This document shows positions 892 through 54,733 of a DNA stretch of 64,000 nt, piece after piece. This DNA comes from Rhodohalobacter sp. 614A. GTDB taxonomy: Bacteria > Bacteroidota > Rhodothermia > Balneolales > Balneolaceae. The stretch covers positions 1,398,273 to 1,462,272 of the forward strand of contig NZ_JAKEDS010000001.1 in assembly GCF_021462415.1 (NCBI RefSeq), written 5' to 3'. Made by a program: the position numbers and the translations under genes. Numbering within the stretch: position 1 is the stretch's first letter; every line of letters begins with the position of its first letter. Below the pieces are notes generated by a model. That model did no database searches. It saw nothing but the letters and a program-made list of their open reading frames with translations, and was not told the DNA's origin.

Positions 892-3800
892 ATGAAAAAA
901 AGTTTATTCACGTTTTTTGCATTTCTTCTGCTATCACCCGCTGCTTTTGGACAAATCAGCGCAAAATTAATGCAGTATATGGATGTCTCGGAGACCGACA
1001 TTGTTTTTGTTTATGGAGGAGATATTTGGTTGGCGCCGAAGGATGGGGGAACGGCGGTTCAGGTTACGAGATCTCAGGGTGAGGAGTCATGGCCAAAATT
1101 TTCACCCGATGGAAATGAAATTGCTTACACGGCGAGCTATAATGGAAATGAAGATATTTATGTAATTCCGGTTCAGGGAGGAGTTCCAAAAAGGGTAACT
1201 TACCACTCATTTTCGGATCGCATGATTGATTGGCATCCCGATGGCGAGCGGCTGTTGTTTGCATCCCGCCGGCACATGGGCCAGCGCAGTTCAAATAAGT
1301 TTTACCTGGTGGATAAAGAAGGCGGTTTTCCTGAAGAGCTTGAGATTCCATACGGAGAGTTGGCAAGTTTTTCTCCTGATGGAAACAAGCTGGCATATAT
1401 CACAAAAATAACTGAAAATTATCCGTTTAAGCGTTATAAAGGCGGCTTGGCATCGGAAATCATCATTTACGATTTTGAAGAACATCAAACCGAAAGAATC
1501 ACAGAAAATGAATTAAATGACGGAAAACCGGTTTGGGCTGGTGATACAGTTTATTTCCTGTCGGACAGGGGAGAGAATTTCCGGTTAAATATCTGGAGTT
1601 ATAATACTACCAATGGTGAATTCTCGCAGCTAACCAATTTTGAAGATTTTGATATTTCATTTCTGTCCGCCGGACCAGACGAATTGGTTTTTGAGGTTGG
1701 CGGAGATCTATACCTGATGGATTTACAGACTCATGAATATTCACCTGTTGAGATAAATGTGGTCAGCGATCTTTCTAACGAAATGGCAAGAGACGAAGAT
1801 GTGAGCGGGAACATCAATAATATGACGGCCGCGCCCGGTGGAAAGCGGATTGTATTTGAGGCAAGGGGCGAACTTTTTAACGTTCCCGCAAAAGAAGGCT
1901 TCACAAGAAATCTGACCAAGTCCAGTGGAGCATTTGACCGTGAACCGTCTTGGTCGCCCAATGGAAAATACATTGCCTACTGGAGTGATAAAGAAGGCGA
2001 GTATAACATCTATCTGCAAGATGTGGCAACTAACGAAGAACCCAAAAAGCTTACAGGCAGAGAGAACGGTTACGGTTATACTTTATATTGGTCACCCAAC
2101 AGCGAGAAGATTGCATTTATAGATGAAACCAACACCATCTACATAGTAGAAATTGAAAATGGAAACATTACAGAAGCCGGGAATACCTACTGGAATGTTG
2201 GCCACGGAGGGAGACATGGATATTCTATTTCATGGTCGCCGGATTCAAAATGGATTGCCTTTACTAAAGGTCTTGATAATGCCAATAACGTAATCCTGCT
2301 CTTTGATACTGAAGGAGAAGAGTTGCACCAGGCCACAAGCGGATTTTATTCCGATAACAATCCTGTTTTCAGCCCGGACGGCAAGTATCTCTACTACACA
2401 ACCAATCGTGAGTTTGATGCAGAATATTCTGATTTGGACGGTACATGGATCTACCCGAATACAACGCAAATTGCATCGATTAGCCTGATGCCGGATACGC
2501 CTTCACTCCTTCAGCCTGAAAATGATGAGTTAGATCTCAATGAAGAATCAGGGGAAGAATCGGACGAAAATGGTGAAGAGGAGTCATCAGAAGAAGGTGA
2601 GGAGGAAGAGGGCAAAACTGAAATTGAATTTGATGGTTTTGAAACGCGAATTACAATGCTTCCGCCACAAGCCGGCAATATCGGCAACCTGATGTCATTT
2701 GAAGGAAAAGTTGTATATATGCGATATCCGAATACCGGTTCCAATGGCGGACCTCCTTCATTGATGGCTTATGATATAGAAGAAAGAAAAGAAATCACCA
2801 TTATGGATGGCGTAAATGGAGCAGTACCTACAGCCGACGGCAAAGCCATTTTGGTTGCAAGTTTTGGTCAATATGGAGTCATTCAACCGCAGGAAGGGCA
2901 AAGTATCGAAGAGGCTATTCCAACGGATGGTTTGGTGATGAATCTTGTGCCGAAAGAGGAGTGGAGACAGATTTTTACGGATACTTGGCGCAGATATCGT
3001 GATTTCTTTTATGATGCCGAAATGCAGCAAGTAGATTGGGATGAAATGAAAGAGCGATACGGAGCGCTGATTGAAGATGCACGAACCCGATGGGATGTCA
3101 CCAACATTCAATCGAACATGCAGGCCGAACTGAGTGCAGGCCATACCTACACGTTTGGCGGTGATACGGAAAATGTAGAATATCGCGGAACAGGATTTTT
3201 GGGTATTGATTGGGAGCTTGATGACGATGTGTATCGCATCAAACGAATTGTGAAACCGGCGTTGTGGGATACGGAAGTTCGTTCGCCGTTTGATCGCCCG
3301 GGAGTGGATGTCTCCGAAGGGGATTATATTCATGCCGTAAATGGAGTACGGCTGAATCCTGATAAAGATCCGTACGCTGCATTTGAAGGATTGGATGACG
3401 AAACTGTATCCTTAACAGTAAGTAGCGATGGCGATCCCGAAGATGTGAGAGAAGTCATTGTGGAAACGTTAACTCCGGGAGAAGAATCTCAACTGCGCTA
3501 CCAGGAATGGGTGGAGAACAACCGGAAAATGGTGGATTCACTTTCCGACGGACAATTGGGATATATTTATATGTCGAACACTTCTTCCCAGGGACAGAGA
3601 GAATTGGTTCGGATGTTCTACGGACAGCTCGATAAAAAGGGATTTATTATTGATGAGCGCTTCAACGGTGGCGGCCAATTGGCAGACCGTTTCCTTGAAC
3701 TGCTGCAACGTCCCGTAGTTTATAACCTGCACTGGCGGCACGGGCGCGATCACACCAATCCCGTTCAAACAAATACAGGACCTATGGCCATGTTGATTAA

Positions 3801-50341: not shown

Positions 50342-50363
50342 ACTTTACCGTTCGTAATTATTG

Positions 50364-50398
50364 AACCCGTTCTGGAGCAATTCAGAACGGGTTTTTTT
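50364..50398 (+). terminator. Intrinsic terminator of gap
   Basis: A perfect 11-bp stem (AACCCGTTCTG/CAGAACGGGTT) with an 8-nt loop and a T run, 22 bases after the gap stop. Confidence 0.92.
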
Positions 50399-50744: not shown

Positions 50745-51293
50745 TCATTCACACTCACAATCAACGCAACCTTTTGCAGCACATTTTCCGCAGGTTTGTT
50801 CAAGTTGATCGTGCAGTTGCTGGCGAGCCCGATGTCTGCGAACTTTTAAATTATTACGTGTGATACCCAATTCTTTGGCTACTTCGTGTGGATCTCCCTC
50901 ACCAAGTTCCATTTGCTTAATGAGTTGAGAATATTCAGGCTTTAATTTCGGCAGGATTTCCCGGTAGCATTTGCAAACCATTTTTTCATCCTCTGACGAT
51001 TCATAAAAAGATGAGGCGTCCCGGACAAACTTCTCATAATGTTTTGACTGAGTTTTTGTTCTCCTGTAATGATCAATAATCTTATTACGGACAATCTGAT
51101 AGAACCAGGATAAGATTTTTTTTTCATCTTCGAGATCCGGCAATGCATTCAACGCTTTTAAAATACTGTCCTGTAAAATATCTTCAGCCAACTCCCTGTC
51201 GGATACTTTGGACAAGATAAAATTCAGAAGTCGCTCCCGATGGGGAAGCAATTCTTCAGCTAGTAATTCTTTCTTTTTATACTCGTTCATCAT
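50745..51293 (-). CDS. Cysteine-rich ECF sigma factor (CorE-like)
   Basis: 182 residues, a sigma-70 family ECF factor. Sigma2 region at about 15-80 (LLNFILSKVSDRELAEDILQDSILKALNAL ... KILSWFYQIVRNKIIDHYRR) and sigma4 at about 112-162 (YSQLIKQMELGEGDPHEVAKELGITRNNLKVRRHRARQQL, helix-turn-helix). Two cysteine motifs are unusual: C107-K-C109 in the linker and a C-terminal tail C168-x2-C171-x4-C176-x2-C179-x-C181. That pair (linker CxC plus C-terminal Cys-rich domain) is known from CorE-type ECF sigmas, which bind copper or other metals directly and need no anti-sigma. No anti-sigma gene is adjacent. It is divergent from the copper ATPase gene. Confidence 0.9.
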   Translation of the reverse strand: MMNEYKKKELLAEELLPHRERLLNFILSKVSDRELAEDILQDSILKALNALPDLEDEKKILSWFYQIVRNKIIDHYRRTKTQSKHYEKFVRDASSFYESSEDEKMVCKCYREILPKLKPEYSQLIKQMELGEGDPHEVAKELGITRNNLKVRRHRARQQLHDQLEQTCGKCAAKGCVDCECE

Positions 51294-51359
51294 TAAATAA
51301 ATCTTACTAAAAGAAACTGATTAATTACGAAATTGTTATAAAGAAAAACAGTTGAAATG

Positions 51360-51378
51360 GTGAATGATAATCATCCTA
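51360..51378. promoter_or_regulatory. Fur-box-like palindrome between sigma factor and copA
   Basis: Contains AATGATAATCAT (51363-51374), identical to the central 12 bases of the classical Fur box. It includes the near-palindrome ATGATAATCAT. It lies about 70 bases from the sigma-factor start and just upstream of the copA promoter. A Fur-family regulator (Fur, Zur, Mur) is the natural candidate, but no such gene is in the window. Confidence 0.4.
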
Positions 51379-51385
51379 AAAAAAC

Positions 51386-51414
51386 TGTAACCGATCCAAT
51401 TTTTTGCGTCTGTA
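51386..51414 (+). promoter_or_regulatory. ECF-type promoter of copA
   Basis: TGTAACC (51386-51392) and CGTCTGTA (51407-51414) match the ECF pattern of an AAC-containing -35 and a CGTC -10, with 15 bases between TGTAAC and CGTC. It is on the plus strand, 63 bases upstream of copA. The obvious sigma factor is encoded next door. The spacing is within, or one short of, the usual 16. Confidence 0.6.
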
Positions 51415-51477
51415 TGGGTGAATGATGAAACAGAATTCATCTGAATTTTTTAAAAATATTGTATTTAAGGTAGAGAT

Positions 51478-54033
51478 ATGAAAAACTCAATTGAAACAGA
51501 CGAACATACAAAACAAATACCTGCATCTGAAGCAGATCCAAAGACGGCTCCAAAAGGCACTGACTCTATTCTGTTCGATGTAGAAGGAATGCATTGCGCC
51601 TCCTGTGTGAATAATGTTGAAAAAGCGATCAAAAAAGTACAGGGTGTGGAAGATGTTACCGTAAATCTGGCTACGGAAAAAGCAACGGTTTCTTATCGGA
51701 CAGGAGAAACAGATACCACTAAAATTGTAGATGCCGTTGAACAGGCGGGATATCAAACCAGGGTTGAAACCTTACAATTTAGTGTGAAAGGAATGCACTG
51801 CGCTTCCTGTGTTGGAAATGTGGAAGGAGCCATTCTTCGAACTCCCGGAGTAAAAGATGTTTCGGTAAATCTTGCGACTGAAAAAGCGACGGTCCGAGTG
51901 ATACCGGGAACGATAAATCCCTCGAAGCTTGTAGAAATCGTTCAGGATGCGGGATACCAGGCCGAACTTATCAATGAGGTGGACAGAGCCAGCCAGACGG
52001 ATCGGCAAAAAAAAGAACGTGAGCAGGAACTGAACAGCATCAAACAATCGCTGATGATTGCCGCTACGTTCAGCATCCCAATCTTTCTGATTGAAATGGC
52101 ATCGCATTTTATAACGCCGTTTCATAGCTGGCTGAGTGCTTCGGTGGGTATGCAAAATCTTTATTACCTGTTTTTTGTACTGGCATCAGTTGTTCAGTTC
52201 GGACCCGGTTTGAGATTCTACAAACAAGGCTGGCCATCGTTAAGAAGAGGCACGCCGGATATGAACTCGCTTGTAATGTTGGGAACTACAGCCGCGTATG
52301 GATATTCGGTTGTTGCTACATTTTTTCCACAGGTGTTGCCCAGCGGAACCGTGAATGTCTATTTCGAAGCTTCGGCGGTCATTGTCACTCTTATTTTATC
52401 AGGTAGATATATGGAAGCCATCGCGAAAGGGCGAACAAGCGAATCCATAAAGCGGTTGCTGAGCCTCCAGGCAAAGAATGCGAGAATCATCAGAAATGGA
52501 AAGGAAATGGAAGTTCCCGTAGAACAGGTTCAAATCGGGGATACCATTCTTGTCCGGCCCGGCGAGAAGATTCCGGTTGATGGAGAAGTGGTGGACGGAG
52601 ATTCTTATGTGGATGAATCCATGATTTCCGGAGAACCCATCCCGGTTCACAAAACCAAAGGCGATGAGATGGTCGGAGGCACGATCAACAAAAACGGAAG
52701 CATTCGTTTTAAAGCGACAAAAATTGGCGCTGATACCGTTTTGGCCCAGATCATAAAAATGGTGGAAGAAGCCCAGGGCTCAAAACTGCCAATCCAGTCT
52801 CTGGTGAATAAAGTGACGAGCTATTTTGTGCCCGCTGTAATTACGTTGGCATTGTTAACATTCGGAATTTGGTTCATCTGGGGACCAGATCCCGCGCTCA
52901 CATTTGCACTTGTAAATGCTGTAGCTGTTTTGATTATTGCCTGTCCGTGCGCGATGGGTTTGGCCACGCCGACTTCCATTATGGTTGGAACGGGGAAAGC
53001 GGCCGAAATGGGCGTATTGTTCCGTCAGGGTGATGCATTGCAAGCTCTCCGAAATACCGATGTGATTGTGTTGGATAAAACCGGAACGCTTACAAAAGGC
53101 GAACCTGAATTGACTGATTTTGAAGTCGTTGAAGGTTATGAATCAAATAAGATTTTGCAGCTTGTTGCATCTGCAGAAAATCGCTCAGAACATCCCATTG
53201 CCGAGGCGATTGTAAAAGCCGCCAGGGATAAAAAAGTTGAACTGGCGGAGGCGGATGATTTTAATGCAAAACCGGGTTTTGGAATTGAAACAACAGTTAA
53301 TGGAACCAGGGTTTTTGTTGGAGCTGACCGTTTTATGACTCAGTTAAAGCTTGATATCAGCCACTTTGACGAAGTGCGGGATCATCTGACCAAAGAAGGA
53401 AAAACTCCCATTTATGTCGCGATGGATGACAAATTAGTAGCAGTAATGGCAGTGGCCGATCCCATCAAAGAATCCACCCCAGCCGCGATTAAAGAACTGC
53501 ATCAGCTTGATTTGAAAGTAGCGATGATTACGGGTGATAATGAACAAACTGCCCGGGCAATCGCCAATGAGCTTGGAATTGATGAAGTTGTGGCCGAAGT
53601 ATTGCCTGAGGATAAGGCCAATGCCGTTAAGCAACTTCAGTCCAACGGAAGAAAAGTGACATTTGTAGGCGACGGAATCAATGATGCTCCGGCCCTCGCT
53701 CAGGCGGATGTGGGAATTGCAATCGGAACGGGAACCGATGTGGCTATAGAAAGTGCCGAAGTGGTATTGATGTCCGGCGATCTCAGAAACGTTCCCAATG
53801 CGATTGCGCTTTCTAATTCTACGATACGCAATATCAAAGAAAACCTGTTTTGGGCGTTTGTTTATAATATAATATTGATTCCGCTGGCAGCCGGCGCTCT
53901 TTACCCGGCGTTCGGAATTCTGTTATCCCCGATCTTTGCGGCCGGAGCGATGGCAGTATCAAGCGTATTCGTACTTGGAAATGCATTGAGGTTAAAGCGG
54001 TTTCGTCCGCCGATGAAGGTTGTGAATGGTTAG
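51478..54033 (+). CDS. copA: Copper-translocating P-type ATPase (P1B-1)
   Basis: 851 residues. Two N-terminal heavy-metal-associated domains, each with GMHCASC (near residues 36 and 102), bind Cu(I). Then come the membrane helices, the actuator loop SGEPIPV, the transport site CPC at 489-491 in helix 6, the phosphorylation motif DKTGTLTKG with D533, SEHPIAEAI, and [16 protein letters not shown]. The late helices carry YN and MAVSS, as in P1B-1 pumps. It exports cytoplasmic Cu(I). It is divergent from the cysteine-rich ECF sigma gene, with an ECF promoter upstream. N-terminal residues before the first domain are a short polar leader. Confidence 0.97.
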
Positions 54034-54187: not shown

Positions 54188-54733
54188 TTATTCTTCTTCT
54201 GGTTTTTTATTCAAGTTTACAGTCCTTTTTAATTCTAGTTCTTTTAACTCTAATTCGATTTCTAGAATTCTGTCTTGTTTCTTTTGATGTAAAAAGAACC
54301 ATCCAAAATATCCTATAGCCGTCCAAACTATTCCAGCAATCAGAAATAGGATGGAGTATTTGTGATATTTTGATGTGCGTTCAATAGAATATGAAATAAG
54401 ATTATTTTTTAATGCAATATCATTCATTTTTGAGTTGATACTGTGTGAGAGTTGAAAGATTGAATCAGTTTTAGATCTGAGATTTTGTAGTTCATTAGCG
54501 GTAATTTGATCTCGTTCAAGTAGTTTTTTTGAAAGAGAATCAATTTCGTCAATTTGAAATTCCCACATTCGATTATCAAACATTAGTTGAGAAGTTTGTC
54601 CCTCTAATTTGATTAAATTCTCATTATCTATTTCTATTCTTTGAATGAGATAATAAAAGGTTGAAAAAATTATTAATAATCCTGCCAAATATTGAAATTT
54701 ATAAAAATTATCAGTGGGGATATTATTAAGCAC
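54188..54733 (-). CDS. Uncharacterised membrane coiled-coil protein (181 aa)
   Basis: I do not recognise a family. Two membrane helices (about 13-30 and 126-148) enclose a roughly 90-residue soluble helical segment with heptad-like Leu/Ile spacing (IEIDNENLIKLEGQTSQLMFDNRMWEFQIDEIDSLSKKLLERDQ...), and a second charged helix (RILEIELELKELELKRTVNLNKKPEEE) ends the protein. The gene is markedly AT-rich compared with copA and the glycosidase on either side, which suggests recent arrival. It may be an orphan accessory gene. Confidence 0.7.
   Translation of the reverse strand: MLNNIPTDNFYKFQYLAGLLIIFSTFYYLIQRIEIDNENLIKLEGQTSQLMFDNRMWEFQIDEIDSLSKKLLERDQITANELQNLRSKTDSIFQLSHSINSKMNDIALKNNLISYSIERTSKYHKYSILFLIAGIVWTAIGYFGWFFLHQKKQDRILEIELELKELELKRTVNLNKKPEEE

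Follow-up and report, generated by a model that had tools for sequence, protein, structure and literature searches.

Within the window, by which we mean the whole 64,000-nucleotide stretch of Rhodohalobacter sp. 614A DNA analyzed here, the gene for a CorE-like ECF sigma factor of 182 aa lies on the minus strand (50745..51293) and diverges from copA on the plus strand (51478..54033). The sigma gene was delineated by its open reading frame, Pfam matches, alignment and position in a tree. Its product exceeds the Pfam cut-offs for both Sigma70_r2 and Sigma70_r4_2 and carries cysteines at positions 107, 109, 168, 171, 176, 179 and 181. The first two form a C107-K-C109 linker motif between sigma2 and sigma4 (codons at 50967..50975, minus strand), and the other five, located by translation and alignment, make up a Cys-rich tail of the form C168-x2-C171-x4-C176-x2-C179-x-C181 (codons at 50751..50792, minus strand). 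The divergent gene encodes a predicted P1B-type copper-exporting ATPase of 851 aa with two HMA domains and a CPC motif, scoring 635.7 bits against the TIGR01511 copper ATPase model (cut-off 397), and is the predicted target of the sigma factor. Open reading frame, domains, residue positions and gene orientation all agree with the first-pass annotation, which had described a minus-strand ECF sigma with a linker CxC and a five-Cys tail, divergent from a copper ATPase gene.

The same annotation had reported no adjacent anti-sigma gene, and we likewise recognized none among the four neighbors scanned, namely an ankyrin protein, GAPDH, a 181-aa protein and a GH106 rhamnosidase. Because the 181-aa neighbor (54188-54733) has no Pfam match, some room is left for an unrecognized anti-sigma. 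Most ECFs are held by anti-sigmas, according to the accessible text of PMC8999054, and the window sigma could accordingly be an ordinary member of this kind, restrained by an unlinked or unrecognized partner and using its cysteines only to bind structural zinc. We consider this highly improbable, given that six of the cysteines (C107, C109, C168, C171, C179 and C181) are invariant, together with 11 other residues, in 17 aligned sigmas from many hosts, and that the accessible text of the 2011 CorE study links no anti-sigma to any of its 21 CRD sigmas (PMC3107203). The seventh cysteine, C176, is kept in 15 of the 17.

We next compared the protein with known metal-responsive sigma factors. CorE of Myxococcus xanthus, formerly ECF44 and, in the 2021 scheme, placed in ECF238 or left unclassified, shares with the window sigma its ECF domains, the linker CxC and the lack of a recognized linked anti-sigma. 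Its tail cysteines are given in the text available to us as C181, C184, C189, C192 and C194, spaced CX2CX4CX2CXC, with 181, 184, 192 and 194 invariant and C189 the one mattering most for Cu activation (PMC3107203). Taking this spacing as described, in place of a letter-by-letter alignment, the tail of the window sigma is identical, containing all four invariant cysteines and, as C176, the equivalent of C189. The likeness extends to copper genes as actual or predicted targets, probably including copA for CorE itself, and to promoters in which the AAC of the −35 is followed 16-18 bases later by a conserved G. Unlike CorE, the window sigma lacks the sixth tail cysteine (C206 of CorE), ending at Glu182, has one predicted target where CorE has several, is divergent from copA, and belongs to another host group, probably the Balneolales within Rhodothermia. 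The second M. xanthus factor, CorE2, has the same architecture, but its tail reads Cys-Cys-X3-Cys-X2-Cys-X-Cys and it responds to Cd/Zn in the available portion of PMC9023288; the extra cysteine directly after the second tail cysteine, the CorE2 specificity position, is Ala172 in the window sigma in our 17-sequence alignment, and we rejected assignment to the CorE2 subtype or metal choice on this ground. OrbS of Burkholderia cenocepacia likewise has its own Cys-cluster metal sensor, a feature predicted for the window sigma, but is an iron starvation sigma inhibited by Fe(II) with the cluster CX2CX3CX5C, as far as the accessible part of PMC9023288 describes it. In the consulted section of a 2021 review, experimental work on the group is confined to CorE and CorE2 (PMC8103513).

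Structural comparison gave generic matches: 11 sequences of solved structures were matched, all generic ECF sigmas (best E 9.9e-6), and the metal site was not resolved in a single-run AlphaFold model, which had a pTM of 0.45 and a tail pLDDT of about 50 or less. Amongst curated models, the nearest was SigZ (TIGR02959), the best NCBIfam match at 116.3 bits. That ranking is what would favor a SigZ family member with an unrelated function, a reading we find scarcely credible: the score lies below the cut-off of 168.65, leading us to reject membership, the four CorE-like relatives scanned match at an equally sub-threshold level, and the SigZ-like rows fall outside the Cys-tailed clade described below. 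These SigZ-like sequences (L043-L050, L009 and L054), several of them from the window's family, carry other Cys tails (e.g., CC...C...C.C) without the linker CxC, and are possibly a second Cys-tailed group outside the CorE-like clade.

To establish how far the CorE-like architecture extends, we searched for relatives at several distances. A search of 57 near genomes, of which 27 belong to the same genus, yielded no close relative of the sigma; the best match (E 6e-20, in G029) had no linker CxC. In a sample of 394 genomes of the phylum, a relative of at least 148 bits occurred in five genomes besides the window's, all five sigmas having both the tail and the linker CxC; in three of them, from one genus, His or Tyr stands at the position of C176. 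One scan of genome contigs retained 80 loci, of which 20 were first inspected along with two plasmid loci. The tail was present in 20 of these 22 sigmas; the linker CxC accompanied it in all 20 and was absent from the two untailed proteins. Labels among the 20 included Candidatus Manganitrophus, Chlorobiota, Armatimonadetes, Caldilineaceae, Rhodothermales, Bacteroidetes, Lujinxingiaceae, Acidobacteriaceae, Planctomycetota and Dankookia, most of these being MAG labels, and Chloroflexi-labeled MAG records are also among the carriers of the family. The loci labeled Chlorobiota (L062) and Armatimonadetes (L063) are so alike that one of the two labels may be wrong. In L080, the tail has one extra residue within its Cys spacing.

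In a tree of 40 proteins, comprising a selection of 18 Cys-tailed sigmas and 22 others hand-picked from the search matches, the 18 formed one side of a branch supported at 99/95 and present in 100% of bootstrap trees. Within this group, the window sigma and L065, from a Rhodothermales MAG, form a pair (96/81). The clade includes plasmid-borne sigmas from R. litoralis and P. zucineum, two species on the 2011 list of CorE relatives as far as its accessible text shows (PMC3107203); the link to that list is by species, M. xanthus CorE itself being outside the tree. The first-pass annotation had placed the module outside its known hosts. This holds when compared with the four phyla on the 2011 list (PMC3107203), but the family is wide, with several other phylum labels among MAGs. 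Our literature search, conducted mostly without subscription papers, found no paper on a CorE-like sigma of Balneolales or Rhodothermia. CorE homologs are reported in all marine species examined, at 5 to 8 per Pseudomonadota genome, in the accessible text of PMC10141476, and these high numbers per genome suggest that the CorE model used there is probably loose.

We then considered which genes accompany the relatives' sigmas. A full-length P-type ATPase frame was found in 11 of 24 CorE-like loci, and L061 has one by annotation; none was found in the remaining 12, for several of which the examined DNA was short. Copper-type ATPases thus appear, from these sequences, in about half of the relatives' loci. 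Ten neighbor proteins were scanned with NCBIfam, and the six full-length ATPases among them all exceeded the TIGR01511 cut-off; the first Manganitrophus ATPase (367 aa) fell below it. This copper ATPase gene, on the plasmid (L061, 5557-7555), seems to be divided among several frames and looks like a broken gene from its sequence. Other surroundings include a YHS protein as the next gene in L066 and, in L065, a cation antiporter and a TonB receptor. Rhodothermaceae-type members have no C189 equivalent, yet adjoin a copper ATPase, so the metal cannot be predicted from this cysteine on its own. A response to Cd and Zn is described for CorE2, a member of the same family, in the consulted portions of PMC8999054 and PMC9023288, and the window sigma might be the same self-sensing type but tuned to zinc, cadmium, silver or thiol oxidation, in which case copA would be a secondary target. 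This is unlikely, in our view, as the Cys spacing is of the CorE type without the CorE2 specificity cysteine, and the window ATPase and the six full-length ATPases of relatives are all of copper type.

We turned to the promoter through which the sigma may act. The first-pass annotation had pointed to TGTAACC and CGTCTGTA upstream of copA, and both were located on the plus strand, starting at 51386 and 51407, respectively, giving TGTAAC-N15-CGTC. We take this as the predicted sigma promoter of copA (TGTAAC, 15-base spacer, CGTC; 51386..51410, plus strand), a motif that recurs in CorE-like loci. Within the window alone, the site does not exceed chance, as 20 of 100 shuffled versions of the window contained at least one match to TGTAAC-N14-18-CGTC; judged by sequence, its weight comes from the relatives' loci. 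Two short sequence features lie close by. AATGATAATCATC, a near-palindrome just upstream of the predicted −35 (51363-51375), resembles part of a Fur box. An exact 10-base direct repeat, GGTGAATGAT, flanks the predicted promoter at 51359-51368 and 51417-51426, at about chance level for its length by our estimate.

Across the 4.69-Mb window genome, the strict pattern TGTAACC-N14/15-CGTC gave a single site, upstream of copA, making copA probably the sole target of the exact motif and bearing out the earlier impression that it is the only visible one. As also anticipated, the sigma gene's own upstream region lacks the motif, matches on its strand reaching at most 7 of the 11 motif positions, compared with 11 of 11 for copA. 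Looser patterns stayed below their controls: one-mismatch matches numbered 61 versus 82 for the reversed pattern with N14 and 40 versus 52 with N15, TGTAAC-N15/16-CGTC gave 5 matches versus 11, and TGTAAC-N14-18-CGTCTG gave 2 versus 3. The motif by itself therefore carries no genome-wide signal, and with one strict site we rejected a wider regulon in this genome. Besides copA, the genome contains seven other frames matching P-type or copper ATPases to varying degrees; upstream of the five of these that were checked, the motif was missing, with a best score of 6 to 8 of 11 within 300 bases. On contig 6 of G000 (~46-74 kb; L240 and L241), three P-type ATPases are clustered without the sigma motif upstream of any of the three, along with, judged by eye, a 1034-aa RND-pump-like protein and a PII-like protein.

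We next asked how the motif is distributed amongst the relatives. The pattern itself was the first-pass proposal, and the spacer range was fixed after the first matches in relatives. TGTAAC-N15/16-CGTC occurred at 25 sites in 17 of 24 CorE-like loci (644 kb, both strands counted) and at none in 62 ECF loci that served as controls and came from the same scan (1780 kb). The controls consisted of the remaining loci plus the two untailed inspected ones, and the tail is absent from all 62 of their sigmas. The reversed motif occurred once in the CorE-like loci versus five times in the controls. When the letters of the hexamer were arranged in 180 different orders, the native order gave 25 sites and the next best 5, with a mean of 0.9; for CGTC, the native order again gave 25 and the next best 5. 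Spacing was nearly fixed, with 24 sites at 16 bases, one at 15, one at 13/14 and none at 17/18, so that the window's spacer of 15 compares with 16 in 24 of the 25 sites of relatives. Some of the 24 loci are near relatives (L062/L063; L066, L067 and L070-L072), and we therefore count about ten independent lineages. The seven loci without the motif (L058, L074, L075, L077 and L148-L150) gave only scattered matches to looser patterns.

The sites lie before the ATPase in L064, L069, L073, L080 and L061, ahead of a sigma gene itself followed by copA in L062 and L063, and just after the sigma gene in L066-L068 and L070-L072. In L065, the site (at 3328) stands before the TonB receptor and a CGTT variant precedes the sigma; other sites fall elsewhere, in L068 at 4653, L076 at 7296, L057 at 3807 and L080 at 15202. 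Amongst the 24 sites with a 16-base spacer, TGTAAC is followed by C in 17 and then by G in 15, and CGTC by T in 16; the window site has the same C, G and T. In the available text of PMC3107203, the criteria used to select M. xanthus CorE promoters were AAC and a G lying 16-18 bases further along, features that the relatives' motif fits in sequence. Around copA in 29 relatives' loci, we found two matches (L160 and L181), both within the copA-matched stretch and none upstream. Several copper ATPases (L157, L159, L160 and L162-L166) are preceded by a ~190-aa protein with an HMA-like start, MVCPRC or MVCDRC, which is perhaps the usual regulator of relatives' copper ATPases. Judged from sequence, then, the promoter motif is confined to CorE-like loci among those compared, and a promoter common to distant relatives is a new and useful predicted element, the strongest new result of this analysis.

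The history of the locus was examined in species of the same genus. Two of them, G005 and G015, keep the GAPDH-copA order without the sigma or the motif, their copA orthologs being 77 and 75% identical to that of the window and lying 89 and 100 bases after GAPDH. DNA similarity to both ends just past a terminator-like hairpin after GAPDH (50363..50394, plus strand), near the end of the common stretch, and returns near copA codon 30. We found no case of a lost Cys motif in a retained gene pair, an outcome that the first-pass annotation had set against its own reading; what varies instead is the presence of the sigma beside copA. The genes rpoB, gyrA and copA each group G005 with G015, leaving the window outside, while GAPDH places the window nearer G015. 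(Two equal-score gyrA matches lie close together on G005 contig 4, at 452162 and 456489, as a tandem copy or assembly artefact.) With three genes uniting G005 and G015, we rejected a simple recent insertion of the sigma; one gain and one loss are equally parsimonious under this grouping. Amongst the loci compared, the nearest copA outside the genus (59%) comes from the Lujinxingiaceae MAG L069, where it adjoins a CorE-like sigma gene, and this neighborhood leans toward joint arrival of sigma and copA with later loss. The sigma tree conflicts with this, since the nearest relative is L065, not L069.

Taken together, we consider it likely that the window sigma is a CorE-like, self-sensing ECF sigma that switches on copA with copper and without an anti-sigma. 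The Cys spacing, the linker CxC in all 20 tailed sigmas, the clade, the copper ATPases in about half of the loci and the motif all support the first-pass suggestion of a CorE-like module. Counting against it are the window's 15-base spacer, the loci that lack the motif or a full-length ATPase frame, the copper ATPase beside Rhodothermaceae-type members without a C189 equivalent, the sigma-less copA of G005 and G015, and the weakly modeled tail in the AlphaFold structure. Domains, Cys pattern, clade and the motif's restriction to such loci among those compared can be read directly from the sequences, whereas metal binding, copper as the metal, activation instead of inhibition and freedom from an anti-sigma are argued by analogy with Myxococcus CorE. 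Under this model, cytoplasmic copper would bind the Cys-rich tail, with the linker CxC probably taking part, and the copper-bound sigma would become the form that works with RNA polymerase at TGTAACCG-N13-CGTC upstream of copA, so that the CopA pump would be made when copper rises. No anti-sigma would be required for control, and with the sigma gene itself devoid of the motif, copA would probably be the only target of the exact sequence.

The system is a CorE-like copper switch of known type, ordinary in kind and well supported. Its module is compact, with five of the six CorE tail cysteines, a single clear promoter and a single clear target, and the same-genus species with a copA locus but no sigma add to its usefulness; how metal on the tail activates the sigma is therefore a question that this minimal system makes testable. 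The promoter motif common to distant relatives offers a route to predict the regulons of the family. More tentatively, CorE-like sigmas and TGTAACCG-N14-CGTC might constitute a portable one-sigma, one-promoter copper switch spread across about eight phylum labels (mostly MAGs), its parts nearly unchanged and fitted to or dropped from copA among close species. If so, regulator exchange could be watched at a single locus.
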